Part shown: positions 1 through 10,763 of the stretch, piece by piece
Numbering within the stretch: position 1 is the stretch's first letter
Layout: every line of letters begins with the position of its first letter
Notes under the pieces: model-generated
What the model was told of the DNA's origin: nothing
Database searches by the model: none
The model's input: only the letters and a program-made list of their open reading frames with translations
From: Bosea sp. OAE506
GTDB lineage: Bacteria > Pseudomonadota > Alphaproteobacteria > Rhizobiales > Beijerinckiaceae
Assembly: GCF_040546595.1 (NCBI RefSeq)
Contig: NZ_JBEPOB010000001.1
Location: forward strand, 1,179,001 to 1,243,000
DNA: 64,000 nt
Direction of reading: 5' to 3'
Translations under genes and position numbers: made by a program

Positions 1-934
1 GGCGCGCATCGCCGCGCTGGAATCCCTCACCGGCAGCACGGTGGAACGGCACCGCGTCCTGATGGCGGAGGCCGGGGTCACCCATCGCCTGCGCGAGACG
101 GGCACGCTCAAGCTCTGGCGCACCGAAGCCGGCCATGCGGCCGCTCAAGCCGAGCACGATTTCCTGAAGGCACATGGCATCACCTCGCAGGTGCTCGACC
201 GGCAGGGTATTTCGGGCGTCGAACCGGCGTTGAAGCCGATCTTCCATGCCGGTCTGATCTGCCTTGAGAACGCCTCCGTTGACTCGCCGGGTGCCGTGAC
301 GCAGGCCTATGCGGAGCTCTTCCTGCAGCGCGGCGGGCGGATCGAACGGGCGGAAGCTCAGCGGCTGGAGCGCAGCGCTTCCGGCTGGCGGGTGCAGGCT
401 GGGTCTACGGTGTTCGAGGCCGATATCGCTGTCGTCGCGCTCGGGCCTTGGAGCATGGATCTGCTGGCGCCTTTGGGCCTCGACCCGAAGCTCGACGTGG
501 AGCGCGGCTATCATCGCCATCTGCGGGCGGAGCCGGGCGCGCGCCTGTCGCGGCCGGTCTATGACGTCGACGCCGCCTATTTCATGGCACCGATGGAAGA
601 GGGGTACCGCGTGACGAGCGGCGTCGATCTCAGCCGACGCGACGCGCCCGACAACCATCGCCAGATCGACCAGGTCACGGTGAGTGCGCGCGAGGCCTTC
701 CCGCTCGACGCATTCGCCGGGGACACCTGGCGTGGCGCGCGGCCGACCCTGCCGGATTCACTGCCGATGATCGGCGAGGCGCCGCGAAACCCCGGCCTCT
801 GGCTCGCCTTCGGCAACCAGCATCTGGGATTCTCGACGGGGCCGATCACGGGTGAGATCGTCGCCGCACTGGTCTGCGGAGAGACGCCGCCGGTGGACCC
901 GACGCCGTTCAGGCCGGGGCGTTATATCGGTTGA
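1..934 (+). CDS. FAD-dependent D-amino-acid oxidase/dehydrogenase-like protein, 5' end missing
   Basis: The reading frame is open from the left edge (from base 2) and stops at 934, so the N-terminus with the Rossmann FAD-binding motif lies outside the window. What remains resembles the DAO fold of DadA and glycine-oxidase-type enzymes: a middle substrate domain, the strand VVALGPWSMDLLAPLGL, and near the C-terminus GARPTLPDSLPMIGEAP followed by NQHLGFSTGPITGEIVA. That last segment is the usual FAD-closing motif of this family. It probably oxidises an amino acid and passes electrons to oxygen or the quinone pool, but the substrate cannot be read from the sequence. A family B palindromic repeat lies just downstream, facing the convergent sdhB. 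Confidence 0.8.
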   Translation, partial: ARIAALESLTGSTVERHRVLMAEAGVTHRLRETGTLKLWRTEAGHAAAQAEHDFLKAHGITSQVLDRQGISGVEPALKPIFHAGLICLENASVDSPGAVTQAYAELFLQRGGRIERAEAQRLERSASGWRVQAGSTVFEADIAVVALGPWSMDLLAPLGLDPKLDVERGYHRHLRAEPGARLSRPVYDVDAAYFMAPMEEGYRVTSGVDLSRRDAPDNHRQIDQVTVSAREAFPLDAFAGDTWRGARPTLPDSLPMIGEAPRNPGLWLAFGNQHLGFSTGPITGEIVAALVCGETPPVDPTPFRPGRYIG

Positions 935-948
935 GCGGGACGACACGC

Positions 949-1040
949 GTCATGGTCGGGCTTGACCCGACCATCTCGGAAACCAGTGTCTTTTCGTCCC
1001 GAGATTCTCGGGTCTGCGCTTCGCTCCGCCCGAGAATGAC
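949..1040. repeat. Family B intergenic palindromic repeat
   Basis: The element begins gtcatggtcgggcttgaccc and ends with a cccgagaatgac arm. It fills the gap between two convergent genes. The same outer pattern (GTCAT at one end, ATGAC at the other, with GGG/CCC-rich arms) recurs at 6657, 14140, 15823, 17234, 32210 and 36661. The copies vary in their inner sequence. It may act as a bidirectional terminator here. Confidence 0.6.
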
Positions 1041-1057
1041 GCTGTTGTCGCGTCGGC

Positions 1058-1843
1058 TCAGACCTGGCGCGCCACCATCATCTTCTTGACCTCAGCGATC
1101 GCCTTGGCCGGGTTCAGGCCCTTGGGACAGGCGTTCGCGCAGTTCATGATGGTGTGGCAGCGATAGAGCCGGAAGGGGTCCTCGAGATTGTCGAGGCGCT
1201 CGCCGGTCTGCTCGTCGCGTGAGTCGATCAGCCAGCGATAGGCCTGCAGCAGGGCGGCCGGGCCGAGATAGCGGTCGCCGTTCCACCAGTAGCTCGGGCA
1301 GGAGGTGGTGCAGCAGGCGCAGAGGATGCACTCATAGAGCCCATCGAGCTTCTCGCGGTCCTCGCGGCCCTGCTTCCACTCTTTTTCGGGCGCCGGCGTC
1401 GTGGTCTGCAGCCAGGGCTCGATCGAGGCGTGCTGGGCGTAGAACTGGGTCAGATCCGGCACCAGGTCCTTGATCACCGGCATATGCGGCAGCGGGTAGA
1501 TCGCGACCTTGCCCTTTGAGCCGCATTCGTCGATGCCGGTGGTGCAGGCGAGCCCGTTCTTGCCGTCCATGTTCATGGCGCAGGAGCCGCAGATGCCCTC
1601 GCGGCAGGAGCGGCGGAAGGTCAGCGTCGGGTCGATCTTGGACTTGATCCAGATCAGCGCGTCCAGAACCATCGGCCCGCAATCCTCGCGGTCGACGAAG
1701 TAAGTGTCGGTGCGCGGATTCTCGGTGTCGTCGGGACTCCAGCGATAGACCTTGAATTCGGTCAGCTTCGCGGCCCCGGCGGGCTTCGGCCAGGTCTTGC
1801 CCGCGACGAGGCGCGAGTTCTGCGGAAGATTGAATTCAGCCAT
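1058..1843 (-). CDS. sdhB: Succinate dehydrogenase iron-sulfur subunit
   Basis: This 261-residue protein has the length and all the cluster ligands of SdhB. The [2Fe-2S] site reads [16 protein letters not shown] with a later LAC. The C-terminal half has [16 protein letters not shown] and [17 protein letters not shown], which bind the [4Fe-4S] and [3Fe-4S] clusters. It relays electrons from SdhA flavin to ubiquinone at the SdhCD membrane anchor, in complex II of the TCA cycle. The ATG at 1843 is preceded by ACGGAAAAGC. In related operons sdhB follows sdhA directly. Here an unrelated gene (1862-2659) sits between them, 18 bp upstream of this start, so sdhB translation depends on a transcript that carries the extra gene. 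Confidence 0.97.
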
Positions 1844-1861
1844 CGGTGCTTTTCCGTCAGT

Positions 1862-2659
1862 TCAGTGTCTTGCCTGATCGATGGCAGACTTTACGATCTG
1901 GATGAGGTTATCCCGCTGCGCCGATCGTTCGTATGGGACCGACATAGCGAAAAACGATTTGTCGAACCCAACGGAATTATTTTTCGTTTCAGCCAACAAA
2001 TCAGCGTCTTTAGGTTTTTGGCCCATCAAAACGACCAAGCCATCGAAATAGAACCGAAAATAGTTGGCCGCGGGAAACGACTGGCCTGCGCCATCCGGAC
2101 GCGGGTAGGTGACCCGCCGGGGCGTATGATTGTGTGGGTCACCTTTTGTGGACATAACAATCAGTGTAGTCGGAAAGTCGTCTTCATTGCCCCGATTTCC
2201 AGACAAGCAAAGAAACCGAAGATACTCTAGGTCGTCCTCAGGTATCGATATGTCGGCAAATTCGAACTTTTGACTTGCAGCACAACGCCACAGGAGGCTC
2301 AAAAAAAACATGCGAAGGTGTTCTGGATAATCGCTCTGTAGCCGAGTGAGACCCCACCCGCTTTCAGCGTCGATTGAATCATGAACTAAGTCAGAATGCC
2401 CTTCAGAACTCCAGACGACACCTAATCGGCGTAACTCATTGACACCGCGCGTATCATAACGCGCAAGTATGCTCTCGCCTTTGTCTGTGACCAGCTCGTT
2501 GTCATACCAGCTAGTCGGACGCAGGATTACCTTATCGAGCCCTTGCCCGTACTCCAGCATCTTCTCACCGTTCGGCGAAAGTTTAGTCAAGGCTCTCGGT
2601 ATCAAATGAGATCTGACAAACTTTCCCTCCGATTTCGTAAGGCGACAACGGCCGCGCAT
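1862..2659 (-). CDS. Unknown protein inserted within the sdh operon, lower-GC
   Basis: This 265-residue protein is not one I can assign. It starts MRGRCRLTKSEGKFVRSHLI and continues PRALT, an opening I associate, without certainty, with a family of uncharacterised HNH-like or phage-linked proteins. Only one Cys is present in the N-terminal pair position, so a zinc-bound HNH is not evident. There is no signal peptide or membrane segment. The ATG at 2659 has the Shine-Dalgarno TGAGGACG, which overlaps the sdhA stop codon, and the gene ends 18 bp before sdhB, so it is neatly co-transcribed. Base composition differs sharply: a hand count over 1921-2040 gives 54 G+C of 120, against 43 of 60 for 3241-3300 in sdhA. 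An intact frame with alien composition suggests acquisition by transfer. Confidence 0.85.
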   Translation of the reverse strand: MRGRCRLTKSEGKFVRSHLIPRALTKLSPNGEKMLEYGQGLDKVILRPTSWYDNELVTDKGESILARYDTRGVNELRRLGVVWSSEGHSDLVHDSIDAESGWGLTRLQSDYPEHLRMFFLSLLWRCAASQKFEFADISIPEDDLEYLRFLCLSGNRGNEDDFPTTLIVMSTKGDPHNHTPRRVTYPRPDGAGQSFPAANYFRFYFDGLVVLMGQKPKDADLLAETKNNSVGFDKSFFAMSVPYERSAQRDNLIQIVKSAIDQARH

Positions 2660-2666
2660 ATCGTCC

Positions 2667-4499
2667 TCAGTACACCCGCGCCTTGGGCTTGATGTACTCG
2701 ATGTCGTTCGAGAGCGTGTAGGTGTGGACCGGGCGGTCGTCGAGCGAGACGGTGCGCTTCTCGTCGTCGATCCAGGCGAGCGTGTGCTTCATCCAGTCCT
2801 TGTCGTCGCGGTTCGGATAATCCTCGCGGGCATGGGCTCCGCGGCTTTCCGGACGCTGCAGTGCCGAGTCCATGGTGACGACGGCCTGGGTGATCAGGTT
2901 GTCGAACTCCAGCGTCTCGATCAGGTCCGAGTTCCAGATCAGCGAGCGGTCCTTGGTGCCGATGTCGGTGATGCCGGCCCAGACCTCGTGGATGAGCTTG
3001 TGGCCCTCTTCCAGCGTCTCGCCGGTGCGGTAGACGGCGCAGTTGTCCTGCATGGTGCGCTGCATCCGGCCGCGCAGATCCGCGGTCGGCGTGCTGCCCG
3101 AGGCGTTGCGGTACTTGTCGAGGCGCGAGAGCGAGAGGTCGGCCGAGTTCTTCGGCAGTTCGGGCTGCTTCTCGCCCGCGCTCACCGTGTCGGCGCAGCG
3201 CAGGCCGGCGGCGCGGCCGAAGACCACGAGGTCGATCAGCGAGTTCGAACCGAGGCGGTTGGCGCCGTGGACGGAAACGCAGGCCGCCTCGCCGATCGCC
3301 ATCAGGCCCGGCACCACGGTGTCGGGGTTGCCGTCGACCTTGGTCAGCACCTCGCCGTGGAAGTTCGTGGGGATGCCGCCCATGTTGTAATGGACCGTCG
3401 GCAGCACCGGGATCGGCTCGCGGGTGACGTCGACGCCGGCGAAGATCTTGGCGCTCTCGGAGATGCCGGGCAGGCGCTCGTGCAGGATCTTCGGGTCGAG
3501 ATGGTCGAGATGCAGGTAGATGTGGTCCTTGTTCTTGCCGACGCCACGGCCGCCGCGGATCTCCATCGTCATCGAGCGCGAGACGACGTCGCGCGAGGCG
3601 AGGTCCTTGGCCGAGGGGGCATAGCGCTCCATGAAGCGCTCGCCTTCCGAATTGGTCAGGTAGCCTCCCTCGCCGCGGGCGCCTTCCGTGATCAGGCAGC
3701 CGGCGCCGTAGATGCCGGTCGGGTGGAACTGCACGAACTCCATGTCCTGCAGCGGCAGGCCGGCGCGCAGCACCATGCCGCCACCGTCGCCGGTGCAGGT
3801 ATGGGCGGAGGTCGCCGAGAAATAGGCGCGGCCATAGCCGCCGGTCGCCAGAATGGTCTGCTGCGAGCGGAAGCGGTGAAGCGTGCCGTCGTCCATCTTC
3901 AGCGCGATGACGCCGCGGCAATGCCCGTCCTCATCCATGATGAGGTCGATGGCGAAATACTCGATGAAGAACTCGGTGTTGTAGCGCAGCGCCTGGCCAT
4001 AGAGCGTGTGCAGCATGGCGTGGCCGGTGCGGTCGGCGGCGGCACAGGTGCGCTGGGCGGGCGGACCTTCGCCATATTCGGTGGTCATTCCGCCGAAGGG
4101 GCGCTGATAGATCTTGCCGTCCTCGGTGCGCGAGAAGGGCACGCCCCAATGCTCGAGTTCATAGACGGCGGCCGGCGCGTTGCGGACGAGATACTCGATC
4201 GCGTCCTGGTCGCCGAGCCAGTCCGACCCCTTGACGGTGTCGTACATGTGCCACTGCCAGGTGTCCTTGCCCATGTTGCCGAGCGAGGCGGCAACGCCGC
4301 CCTGGGCCGCAACGGTGTGCGAGCGGGTCGGGAACACCTTCGAGATGCAGGCGGTGCGCAGGCCGGCCTGCGAACAGCCGACGGTGGCGCGCAGGCCGGC
4401 GCCGCCGGCGCCCACCACGACGACATCGAAGGTGTGGTCGGTGATCGGATAGGCCTGGCCGGTATAGGCGGGGGCCTGTCGGGACTTGGTGATCGCCAT
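2667..4499 (-). CDS. sdhA: Succinate dehydrogenase flavoprotein subunit
   Basis: This catalytic subunit of complex II oxidises succinate to fumarate. It has the N-terminal FAD motif [12 protein letters not shown] and the segment [16 protein letters not shown], whose His carries covalent FAD. The substrate-binding region reads [20 protein letters not shown], and [15 protein letters not shown] is the usual C-terminal FAD contact. The ATG at 4499 is chosen (610 residues, MAITKSRQ) because GGAGGC sits eight bases upstream. A TTG at 4514 would add five residues and overlap that Shine-Dalgarno. The start lies four bases past the sdhD stop region, so translation is coupled. The downstream neighbour is the foreign gene at 1862-2659 rather than sdhB. 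Confidence 0.97.
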
Positions 4500-4503
4500 C
4501 GGA

Positions 4504-4896
4504 TCAGCCTCCAAAGGACAGCTTCAGCACCGCATAGGCGCAGGCAGCGCCGACAGCGATCGCGAAGAAGGTATTGGCCATCACGGCCGCGATCTTGGCG
4601 CCCTCACCATGGACATAGTCCTCGATGATGACCTGCATGCCGATACGCATGTGTACGCAACCGGATACGACGAAGAGCAGCATCAGGATCGCCACCAGCG
4701 GGTGCGACAGAATGGCGAGCGCCGCGGGGTAGGGCTTGCCAGCGAGCGCGATGACGATGCCGAGGAAGATCAGCGTCAGGACGAGGTTCGACACCGCCGT
4801 CATGCGCTGCAGCCAGAAATGACCGGTGCCGGACTTGGCCGAGCCGAGGCCGCGGACGCGCGAGAGCGGGGTGCGGAGCGAGGAGTTGGATTGCAT
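4504..4896 (-). CDS. sdhD: Succinate dehydrogenase membrane anchor subunit
   Basis: This 130-residue hydrophobic protein has three predicted membrane helices. The segment [20 protein letters not shown] is the SdhD signature that contributes to haem b and ubiquinone binding. It anchors SdhAB to the inner membrane together with SdhC. It lies 11 bp downstream of sdhC and its stop region abuts sdhA, consistent with one sdhCDA transcript. The N-terminus ([20 protein letters not shown]) is typical of rhizobial SdhD. Confidence 0.93.
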
Positions 4897-4907
4897 CGTC
4901 TCTCTCC

Positions 4908-5303
4908 TCAGCGCACGGCCAGGGCGACGACCCAGACGAGCAGCGTCAGGCCACCCGAAAAGACGACGCTGTATTTCGCCAGGTTCATCCGGGTCTGCGG
5001 ATCGTAGCCCTTGCCCATGTCCCAGATGAAATGGCGCACACCGCCGGCCATGTGGTGCAGCAGCACGAAGGAATAGCCGAACAGCACGAGGCGGCCGAAC
5101 CAGGAGCCCGCGATCGCCTGCGCCGTGTCGAAGGCGGCGGGGCCCGAGGCCGCGGCGACGAGCCAGGCCGCGATCAGCACCGTGCCGGCATAAAGCGCGA
5201 CGCCGGTGGCACGATGGGCGATCGACATCGCCATCGTCCAGGACCAGCGATAGATCTGCAGATGCGGCGAGAGCGGACGCGCCGCCTGTTTGACCTCGGC
5301 CAA
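4908..5303 (-). CDS. sdhC: Succinate dehydrogenase cytochrome b556 subunit
   Basis: SdhC is the first gene of the operon and the second membrane anchor, with three hydrophobic helices. RPLSPHLQIYRWSW followed by SIAHRATG is the family N-terminal motif. LLHHMAGGVRHFIWDMG holds the haem-ligand His. The TTG at 5303 (MAEVKQAARPL, 131 residues) is preferred because GGAG precedes it by eight bases and the family usually begins there. An in-frame ATG at 5345 would add 14 residues with no comparable Shine-Dalgarno. Transcription presumably starts in the 5304-5457 gap. Confidence 0.93.
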   Translation of the reverse strand: MAEVKQAARPLSPHLQIYRWSWTMAMSIAHRATGVALYAGTVLIAAWLVAAASGPAAFDTAQAIAGSWFGRLVLFGYSFVLLHHMAGGVRHFIWDMGKGYDPQTRMNLAKYSVVFSGGLTLLVWVVALAVR

Positions 5304-5353
5304 GATCGTTCTCCGTGGGAAACGCCCGGGTACGGGCCTATCCATTTGGGATC

Positions 5354-5382
5354 ATTCTAGAGTGTCTGGCTGTCTATCGAAA
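5354..5382 (-). promoter_or_regulatory. Possible promoter of the sdh operon
   Basis: Read on the minus strand, TAGAAT (5359-5354) matches five of six bases of a sigma-70 -10 box, with TTTCGA 17 bp upstream as a poor -35. It is placed about 50 bases before the sdhC start. This is only a visual match. Confidence 0.3.
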
Positions 5383-5420
5383 CCGTTCCGCCGCTGCAAT
5401 GCGGCATGACGACAGCGCGG

Positions 5421-5442
5421 TGACAGAATACAGAATCTGTCA
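5421..5442. promoter_or_regulatory. Inverted repeat between the MaoC gene and sdhC
   Basis: The arms TGACAGA and TCTGTCA are perfect seven-base complements with an eight-base spacer. The element lies just after the stop of the hydratase at 5458 and upstream of the possible sdh promoter. It could be a regulator site or a weak hairpin. No T-run follows on either strand, so a Rho-independent terminator is unlikely. Confidence 0.35.
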
Positions 5443-5457
5443 GCGGTTACGGAATTG

Positions 5458-6531
5458 CTAACGCGGCAGCAGGGCCCAGTAGTCGAGATCGAGGATGACG
5501 TCGGTGTCGTAGCCCTCGCCCGCCTTCAGCGGATGGTCGGCGCAGGGTCGGTTCTTGGTCGCGACCAGCCGCAGCCGGAGCGCACCGACATCCTCGCGGC
5601 CGGGCAGTTCGGCGACTTCCAGCACCTCGCTCCAGGCGAAGACGGTGTCGCCGGCGAAGAGCGGCGCGACATGGCGGCCTCCGTTCAGCGCAGCGATGTG
5701 GAAGGCGTTGCCGAGCCCGTTGAAGGACAGTGCCCGTGCGAGGCTGATGACATGGCCGCCATAGATCAGCCGCTTGCCGAAGCGGGTGGAGCGGGCGCCA
5801 TGCCCGTCGAAATGGACCTTGGCGGTGTTCTGGTAGAGCCGGGTCGCGATCTGGTGCTCGGCTTCCTCCACCGTCATGCCGTCGACATGGTCGATACGCT
5901 CGCCCGCGGCGTAATCGCCCCAGCGGAAGGGGCTGCCGGCGAGCGCGTCGTCATAGGCTGCAAGGTCGAGCGGCGGGCAGCCTTCGCCGAGTTCCTCCGG
6001 CAGCACCGCCTTGGGAAGTTCCGGCACCTGCTCGGCATGAGCCGGCGTTCCGGGCGTCCGCTTTCGCACCAGCACCCAGCGCGCATAGCTCAGCACGATC
6101 TCACCGTGCTGGTTGCGGCCGATCGAGCGGACATAGACGATGCCGGCATCGCCGGCGGAGGTCTGCTTCAGCCCGATCACCTCCGAGGTGGTCGAGAGCG
6201 TGTCGCCCGGAAAGACCGGCTTCAGGAAGCGTCCGTCGGCATAGCCGAGATTGGCCACCGCATTGACGGAGACGTCCGGCACCGTCTTACCGAAGACGAT
6301 GTGGAAGACGAGCAGGTCGTCGACCGGTGCGGTCTGGTAGCCGATCGCCTTGGCGAAGGCGTCCGAGGACTGCACGGCGAAGCGTGGGCCGTAGAGCGCG
6401 GTGTAGAGCGAGACGTCGCCGACGGTGACCGTGCGCGGCGTCGCATGGACGATCACGTCGCCGAGGTGGAAGTCCTCAAAGAAGCGCCCGGCGCTGGTCT
6501 TCGGGACAGGATGCTGTGTCGATCCGGGCAT
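5458..6531 (-). CDS. Mesaconyl-CoA hydratase (beta-methylmalyl-CoA dehydratase), tandem MaoC
   Basis: The protein (357 residues from the ATG at 6531) has two MaoC-like hotdog halves. The N-terminal sequence SAGRFFEDFHLGDVIVHATP with TALYGPRFAVQSSDAFA closely fits the mesaconyl-C1-CoA hydratase family, which interconverts mesaconyl-CoA and beta-methylmalyl-CoA in the ethylmalonyl-CoA pathway of acetyl-CoA assimilation. The second half carries another (R)-hydratase-like segment ending in the ILDLDYWALLPR tail. A longer frame reaches 6624, but its extra residues look unrelated and the family starts near MPGSTQHP. Other pathway genes are not in this window. The Shine-Dalgarno is weak. The function is assigned by recall of the family. 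Confidence 0.83.
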   Translation of the reverse strand: MPGSTQHPVPKTSAGRFFEDFHLGDVIVHATPRTVTVGDVSLYTALYGPRFAVQSSDAFAKAIGYQTAPVDDLLVFHIVFGKTVPDVSVNAVANLGYADGRFLKPVFPGDTLSTTSEVIGLKQTSAGDAGIVYVRSIGRNQHGEIVLSYARWVLVRKRTPGTPAHAEQVPELPKAVLPEELGEGCPPLDLAAYDDALAGSPFRWGDYAAGERIDHVDGMTVEEAEHQIATRLYQNTAKVHFDGHGARSTRFGKRLIYGGHVISLARALSFNGLGNAFHIAALNGGRHVAPLFAGDTVFAWSEVLEVAELPGREDVGALRLRLVATKNRPCADHPLKAGEGYDTDVILDLDYWALLPR

Positions 6532-6656
6532 GATCCGCTCGCTGGCTGCGCGCAATTGTGCGCCGCAACGAGCGGCCGCATCAAGCCCCGGCGGATGCGA
6601 CGAAGGATGGGTGGTCGGCCGCAAAAGGTCGCCTGCATCCCCAAAACAGAACGCGA

Positions 6657-6741
6657 GTCATCCCAGACGCAGCGCAGCGGAGATCCGGGATCCATTCCGG
6701 AGCATTCTCAGCTGAGGTTCCGGAATGGGTCCCGGACGACC
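6657..6741. repeat. Family B intergenic palindromic repeat
   Basis: The sequence starts gtcatcccagacgcagcgca and contains complementary TTCCGGA-type arms around the tctcagctgag centre. It lies in the 240-bp gap between secA (minus) and the MaoC gene start (minus). No gene is apparent in that gap. Confidence 0.5.
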
Positions 6742-6771
6742 TGCGCTCTTTGGTCTAAGCGTCGGTTCGCC

Positions 6772-9540
<2,769 letters not shown>

Positions 9541-9923
9541 GGTCGGCCTTTCGGTGGTGTGGCTCCGGCGCCGCGCTGGCCTTGCGCCGCGTCCAGCCGG
9601 AACCTGAATTCTCAATGCGACGGCGTGTTTAGACGCGCGCGAAGGCGGGGTCCAGCATTGCCTTGCTGCGTGCCGCGCCGGAGCGGGCGACGCGGCGAGA
9701 GCGCGCGCGGATCGGCCGCATGTAGGGTCGCGGGGCCCCGCTTCCAAGTCCGGCGCACGGGCAGCCGGCGGCGCGCCGGAGCGCCACCGCGCGCAGGCGG
9801 CTCCGCAAAGCTTCGTGAAGCGGCGCCCGCGGCGCTTTTCGTGCCTTGCCTTTGCCGCGTTCAACTGGCAGTGCACCGGCGAACGCAAGGTTCGCCCCCA
9901 ATCCCCGCAAGAAGGCAGTTCCC
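9541..9923. other. Intergenic region between divergent secA and parvulin gene
   Basis: This 383-bp stretch must hold promoters for both flanking genes. It is very GC-rich from about 9650 to 9830. I see no convincing -35/-10 pair, RNA gene or repeat of either family in it. Confidence 0.5.
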
Positions 9924-10763
9924 ATGAAGGTGTCTCGTCTCGGCATGGTTTCGCTCGGCCTCGTACTGCTGGCGACACCGGTCTTCGCGCAGGCGGACAA
10001 GGTCGTCGCCAAGGTCGACGGCATTGCCATCACCGAGCGCGAGATCGGCCTCGCCACGGAGGATCTCGGCGACCGCCTGGCGCAGCTCCCCGACGACCGT
10101 CGGCGCGACGAGGTGATCAACTACCTCGTCGACCTCAAGCTCGGCGCGAAGGCGGCCATCGCGGCCAAGACGGCTGACGGCCCTGACTTCGCCGCCCGCC
10201 TCGCCTATTTCCGCGAGAAGGTGCTGCTCGACCAGTATCTGACGGCCGAGGCCAAGAAGGCTGCGACGCCGGAGGCGGCCAAGAAGCTGTATGACGAGAC
10301 CACCAAGGCGATGGCGCCCGAGGAAGAGGTCAACGCGCGCCACATCCTCGTCGAGGACGAGGCCCAGGCCAAGGCCGTCGCCGAGCGCCTGAAGAAGGGC
10401 GAGGATTTCGCCAAGGTCGCCGCCGAGCTCTCCAAGGATCCCGGCTCCGGCAAGGAAGGCGGCTCGCTCGGCTGGTTCACCAAGGACCGAATGGTGCCGG
10501 AATTCGCCGAGGTCGCTTTCAAGCTCGCCAAGGGCCAGGTCTCCGATCCGGTGAAGAGCCAGTTCGGCTGGCACGTCATCAAGCTCGAGGACAAGCGCAG
10601 CAAGCCGCTGCCGGACTTCGCGATGGTGAAGCCGCAGATCGACCAGTATCTCGAGCGCAAAGCCCAGCAGGACATCATCCTGGCCCTGCGCGAGAAGGCC
10701 AAGGTCGAGCGCCTCGACCAGCCGGCCGCCCCCGCTGCGCCGGCGGAGCCGAAGAAGCCCTGA
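9924..10763 (+). CDS. Parvulin-type peptidylprolyl cis-trans isomerase, exported
   Basis: This 279-residue protein starts at the ATG at 9924 (MKVSRLGMV) after AAGGCAG and has a Sec signal peptide cleaved after PVFA-Q. A SurA/PrsA-like N-terminal helical region (residues 20-115) precedes a rotamase domain beginning [20 protein letters not shown] and containing [16 protein letters not shown] and [11 protein letters not shown], all parvulin hallmarks. It is a periplasmic folding helper for envelope proteins. The tail is rich in Pro and Ala. A strong terminator hairpin follows. The divergent partner secA supplies its own export route. Confidence 0.92.

Follow-up and report, generated by a model that had tools for sequence, protein, structure and literature searches.

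The window, a 64-kb stretch of the Bosea sp. OAE506 genome, carries an sdhCDAB operon in which an additional gene lies between sdhA and sdhB. The identities of sdhA, sdhB, sdhC and sdhD were confirmed by NCBIfam. The features of the locus are listed below.

1058-1843, reverse strand: sdhB, the downstream flank of the site
1844-1861, reverse strand: 18-bp spacer between the stop of the inserted gene and the sdhB ATG; its GGAAAAG may act as a new ribosome site for sdhB
1848-2656, reverse strand: 809-bp segment absent from the closest relatives, as placed by alignment, with ends uncertain by a few bases
1862-2659, reverse strand: inserted gene of 265 codons, a member of an orphan family, with the motif C-x-L-T ... 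S-H-L-I-P-R-A-L-T
2664-2668, reverse strand: GAGGA, a Shine-Dalgarno-like putative ribosome site overlapping the stop codon of sdhA (2667-2669)
2667-4514, reverse strand: sdhA, the upstream flank of the site; the listed start is TTG and an ATG follows at 4499
4504-4896, reverse strand: sdhD, whose junction with sdhA served as a control
4908-5345, reverse strand: sdhC, whose junction with sdhD served as a second control

The inserted open reading frame (ORF) is intact, starts at ATG and encodes 265 amino acids. The junction of the sdhA stop, GAGGA and the start codon of the inserted gene reads TGAGGACGATATG. The G+C content of the gene is 50.5% (0.505) overall and 0.45 over positions 1921-2040, and its GC3 is 0.54 as compared with 0.86–0.92 in sdhA-D. 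Along the 64-kb window, 800-bp stretches taken in steps of 100 bp had a mean G+C of 67.5% (0.675; sd 0.028), and the two lowest of them fall on the inserted gene, at a z of about −6. The first-pass annotation had described an intact 265-codon frame between sdhA and sdhB with 0.45 G+C over 1921-2040, a Shine-Dalgarno sequence overlapping the sdhA stop and a gene end 18 bp before sdhB; all of this was borne out, GAGGA being present over TGA and the spacer occupying 1844-1861. The ORF is more than a chance reading frame, because 251 sequences (its own included; 247 distinct) align with it along the same frame with invariant residues present.

A scan of positions 900-5600 for the sigma-70 consensus revealed no promoter-like site, with 0.8 expected by chance; this fits, without demonstrating, read-through transcription of the inserted gene. 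On the strand opposite to the operon, the window also holds a 1490-codon open frame (5455-9927, forward strand), which is most likely a GC-rich antisense artefact.

Empty and occupied sdhA-sdhB junctions

In G009 and G032, which are the closest relatives (SdhB 98% identical), the gap after the sdhA stop is empty and measures 14 bp. Read from the stop codon of sdhA as far as the start of sdhB, the sequence is TGAGGACGATCTGACAG in G009 and TGAGGACGATTTGACAG in G032, and in these empty sites the same GAGGA precedes sdhB. A protein search of 60 other relatives (36 congeners and 24 genomes from the order's other families) found the inserted gene in none of them. Its family was present in three of 397 genomes sampled from the order and in two of 385 sampled from the class (E 1e-10), its own genome being counted each time. 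The gene is an insertion that is absent from close relatives; neither a target-site duplication nor a recombinase gene was seen in the insert.

The first-pass annotation had suggested that the sdh operons of related genomes be compared, reasoning that a gene found in most relatives with normal composition would be an ordinary operon member. The comparison gave the opposite picture, with the gene in 0/60 other relatives, a 14-bp empty gap in the closest two, and a foreign composition. Its proposal that a transferred gene exploits the operon for its expression is supported to the extent that sequence can show it, because the insertion is clean when set against the empty sites, the composition is foreign and the start lies right behind the sdhA stop. 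The occurrence of family members in viral contigs and on plasmids, described below, supports transfer as well.

The natural G009 sequence was then used as an empty-site probe over 67 congeners. It matched contiguously in 50 and was split in 14, while three were uninformative and left uncounted (G084 and G089, with no match, and G034, with a 30-bp chance match). When the split regions were read individually, the 14 inserts among 64 informative congeners proved to be of several kinds. One (G000) is the window's own gene, and this genome is the only one of the 64 to carry that gene at the junction. Four inserts (G019, G026, G065 and G073) encode VapD-like proteins; with the NCBIfam VapD model, the G073 protein reached 70.6 bits and the G019 protein 65.8 bits, below the cut-off of 100, and all four matched Pfam Cas2 at 21.3–22.9 bits, below the cut-off of 23.8. 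The G020 insert (L081) encodes a PIN-DUF3775 fusion protein with a short antitoxin-like ORF upstream of it, and that of G004 a DUF433/DUF5615 pair behind an exported-looking protein. The G033 insert encodes a lipoprotein-like and a membrane-like protein, the latter with relatives at 45–50% identity in the inserts of G064 and G086; other membrane-like proteins are encoded in G062 and G074. The labels exported, membrane and lipoprotein were assigned by eye, and five such proteins tested had no Pfam match above cut-off. No convincing gene was found in the inserts of G013 and G068.

The 12 gene-bearing inserts have a G+C content of 0.47–0.61 as compared with 0.64–0.66 in their flanks. On a tree of the sdhA/sdhB flanks covering 38 of the 64 informative genomes, inserts were scattered among empty sites. 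The VapD-like proteins of G065 and G073, whose hosts lie far apart on this tree, are 77% identical, suggesting transfer. Independent arrivals number fewer than 14, as two inserts are gene-less, a single membrane-protein family accounts for three and VapD-like proteins for four. A literature search, judged by titles and abstract openings, showed nothing on an sdhA-sdhB insertion site.

The two other junctions of the operon were free of inserts. None was found between sdhD and sdhA in the 65/65 congeners that the probe truly matched (G089 was left uncounted, as was G084, where the match spanned 32 bp), and none between sdhC and sdhD in 64/64 congeners where the match crosses the junction (G084 and G089 were uncounted, as was G065, whose match ends at the junction edge). 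The difference between 14/64 and 0/65 gave p 2.5e-5 in Fisher's exact test, a value for related, non-independent genomes and for junctions of one operon only. The sdhD-sdhA gap is 4 bp if sdhA starts at ATG, and the genes overlap if it starts at TTG. The sdhC-sdhD gap of 11 bp, with TGAGGAG over the stop, is much like the empty sdhA-sdhB gap. Since sdhC-sdhD has the same layout and is nevertheless insert-free, spacing and an overlapping ribosome site alone do not make a docking site.

Long gaps at sdhA-sdhB also occur across the class, the Alphaproteobacteria. Among 104 genomes, about one per family, SdhB was found in 89; of the 88 other than the window's, 80 were fetched and 77 measured, for gap lengths and at this junction only (L147 and L174 dropped out for lack of sdhA in the fetched stretch, and L177 because its contig ended too early). 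The gap was at most 131 bp in 62/77 and 187–2473 bp in 15/77. That of L137 contains a YgiT/MqsA-like and DUF4258 pair, and that of L168 a DUF1902 ORF together with one that weakly resembles HicA (16.5 bits against a HicA cut-off of 27).

Short gaps between core genes might simply collect inserts in this genus at about such a rate, with nothing special to sdhA-sdhB. Transferred genes are known in general to insert into existing operons (as outlined in PMC2259305), and there were just two control junctions, both in the same operon and one of them a gap of 4 bp or an overlap. We nevertheless consider chance unlikely: inserts were found in 14/64 genomes at one junction and in 0/65 and 0/64 at the others, the unused sdhC-sdhD gap is close in length to the empty sdhA-sdhB gap, and long sdhA-sdhB gaps recur class-wide (15/77). 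The situation resembles the phenomenon as PMC2259305 outlines it in that a foreign gene joins a resident operon, and differs in that various single genes and toxin-antitoxin-like pairs have repeatedly filled sdhA-sdhB, with the two neighbouring junctions staying unused.

The occupants of the junction (VapD-like, PIN, DUF433-DUF5615, MqsA/YgiT-like with DUF4258, DUF1902 with the weak HicA) are akin to chromosomal cassettes of toxin-antitoxin type. The window's gene differs from these in that it stands alone, belongs to another family and lacks an antitoxin-like partner; one long ORF fills the insert and no small antitoxin gene is adjacent.

The encoded protein

The first-pass annotation had proposed sensitive profile and structure searches with the protein, and these placed it in a sequence family without assigning it to a named one. 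No family match was obtained in Pfam, NCBIfam or PADLOC (PADLOC-DB 2.0.0 of 2023), and a Pfam scan of 25 family members gave four weak matches, no HNH model among them. Database searches returned 176 relatives with the single sequence and 550 with a profile. Among the 120 matches listed per search there were no Pfam domains, and the names were mostly 'hypothetical protein', with 'HNH endonuclease' and 'putative transposase' appearing once each.

In the alignment of 251 sequences, which excludes one short protein and any locus of odd length or with an internal stop, W51, D53, E62, D69, W124 and R125 are invariant; C5 is present in 242/251, and H18 and P21 each in 247/251. The order C-x-L-T ... 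S-H-L-I-P at the N-terminus resembles that of HNH-like zinc proteins, in which H18 would correspond to the catalytic histidine. HNH-type proteins have a Cys-x-x-Cys ribbon and S-H-I-I-P, an order that C-x-L-T and S/A-H-L-I-P reproduce; the family departs from them in having Thr for the second Cys (239/251), no second Cys pair and no profile match.

The full AlphaFold model had a pLDDT of 87.7 and a pTM of 0.87. Neither this model nor one of the N-terminal part (pLDDT 74.4) had a confident match in structure searches of the PDB. Against viral models, Foldseek gave one match at E <0.001, the uncharacterised Myoviridae protein A0A8S5THI9 (E 5.7e-9, TM 0.62, 13% identity). The window's protein matched PHROG 19960 at E 1.3e-4 and PHROG 7075 at E 7.2e-3, and 23 of 25 family members matched each of the two at E up to 1. 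PHROGs 19960 and 7075 and A0A8S5THI9 are relatives in sequence and fold, with functions likewise uncharacterised.

Family members elsewhere

Family members were located at 45 loci in named genomes and 22 in viral contigs. Eleven plasmid records typed as conjugative carry the family, ten from Agrobacterium (the same match) and one from Cereibacter. No member turned up at E 0.1 when 50,697 phage records were searched with the protein. In several of the viral contigs the neighbours look, by eye, like lysis, tail, terminase and integrase genes.

Ten neighbours that appeared defence-like by eye, from eight of the 45 genome loci, were scanned with PADLOC. Strong matches were obtained for ThsA and ThsB (L061) and for an OLD/PtuA-like ATPase (L045), and an ATPase match in L071; six of the ten had no match or an E above 1e-3. 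At L061 (5978-8857, Cupriavidus sp. LEh25) the Thoeris pair, ThsA and ThsB by PADLOC, lies directly upstream of the family member, which appears split over two frames. At L043 (6422-8780, Microvirga lupini) the family gene follows 13 bp behind a HerA-like ATPase, for which NCBIfam matches were weak and far below cut-off; the two may form a two-gene unit. The copy at L068 holds an in-frame stop.

The first-pass annotation had raised a defence or nuclease-like function. The company kept at some loci and the HNH-style motif suggest it, while no defence or nuclease profile matched. The viral and partly defence-like company, the lack of an antitoxin and the HNH-style motif are the reasons for a first guess, tentative and somewhat short of even odds, that the protein is a nuclease-like defence or prophage protein.

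Its other suggestion, an accessory factor of complex II, is not supported. A factor of this kind, recruited to the operon to serve complex II or its assembly, would sit where this gene does, inside sdhCDAB and probably co-expressed with it. Relatives that have the operon nevertheless lack the gene (it is absent in 36/36 other congeners searched, and present at sdhA-sdhB in 0/63 other informative congeners), and neither sdhA nor sdhB was detected within the stretch examined at any of the 45 genome loci of the family (tblastn 1e-10). The protein has no Pfam match, and its relatives occur in viral contigs and on plasmids. We regard a role in complex II as very improbable.

At four loci (L060, L070, L074 and L076), which from their genus names we take to be Rhodobacteraceae, the family gene lies directly behind parE. 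The ParE of L070 was named by NCBIfam and those of the parE-linked loci are 80–84% identical to it. With start codons taken as the most upstream that the script allowed, the start overlaps the parE stop at three of the four, with GAGGAG just before it, and lies 37 bp beyond the stop at L076. Together with copies from Actibacterium and Paracoccus, the four form one clade (support 0.86); a family member was found in only four of 325 genomes of Rhodobacteraceae. The 3' end of parE may be another docking site. Near a lepA-like gene in Qipengyuania algicida (L073, 8001-8249) only a C-terminal piece of the family is present, which points to decay once the gene had inserted.

A general targeting of core-gene ends by the family was considered, and the survey of upstream neighbours weakens it. 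A same-strand ORF lies within 60 bp upstream at 17/45 genome loci, as judged with a crude gene caller. Five of these ORFs are recognised core genes (four parE and one enoyl-CoA hydratase), and the seven others that were scanned had no or weak matches; a recognised core gene was seen directly upstream at just 5/45.

A related explanation is that the gene encodes a free-standing HNH-type homing endonuclease, which cuts conserved gene ends (sdhA-sdhB, parE) and copies its own gene there. We judge this improbable, as no HNH profile of Pfam or NCBIfam matched, the gene occurs at sdhA-sdhB in the window's genome alone among 64 informative congeners, the junction takes other cargo without it, and only five of 45 genome copies stand directly behind a recognised core gene. 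Consistent with homing are the strongly conserved H18 and C5 in their S-H-x-I-P context, the one relative labelled 'HNH endonuclease', and the position of a lone gene at gene ends, including four parE-linked copies within one clade of six.

Proposed origin and significance

We propose, with a probability of roughly 0.75, that the inserted gene is mobile accessory cargo of prophage or defence type, perhaps nuclease-like, at a repeatedly used sdhA-sdhB site. The cargo landed in the gap between sdhA and sdhB, a junction that inserts occupy repeatedly, both within the genus and across further families of the class. Entry was presumably by illegitimate or homologous recombination, neither a recombinase gene nor a target duplication having been seen. 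In relatives, the GAGGA over the sdhA stop lies ahead of sdhB; here it lies ahead of the cargo and may serve as the cargo's ribosome site, while the end of the insert would supply a new leader for sdhB. Judging from the sequence, the gene is probably co-transcribed with sdh and carried on its transcript. The protein is most likely a prophage- or defence-type accessory protein; it may be a divergent HNH-like nuclease in which most of the zinc cysteines have been lost.

A stronger version of this proposal is that sdhA-sdhB is a true docking site for promoterless genes and toxin-antitoxin pairs, which live off the operon without disabling it and are exchanged between strains via the conserved flanking genes, with the same layout recurring behind parE. 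This is possible, and we lean against it, the insert-free sdhC-sdhD gap with its like layout having lowered its odds. If it is true, core operons would store mobile defence cargo that is overlooked by searches directed at islands.

Searches for mobile defence and toxin-antitoxin genes usually turn to islands, prophages and tRNA genes. In the present case, such single genes and pairs lodge in an operon of central metabolism, and of its three junctions they use one, where cargo could obtain expression for free. If this is general, the gaps of core operons would be an overlooked place to seek new defence genes, and the orphan family and the small membrane proteins at sdhA-sdhB would become candidates to test. 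The inserts are also a natural experiment on the tolerance of an operon to insertions.

In the class survey, L119 and L157, from two families, have long sdhA-sdhB gaps with ORF translations that resemble, by eye, the inner-membrane protein CreD.
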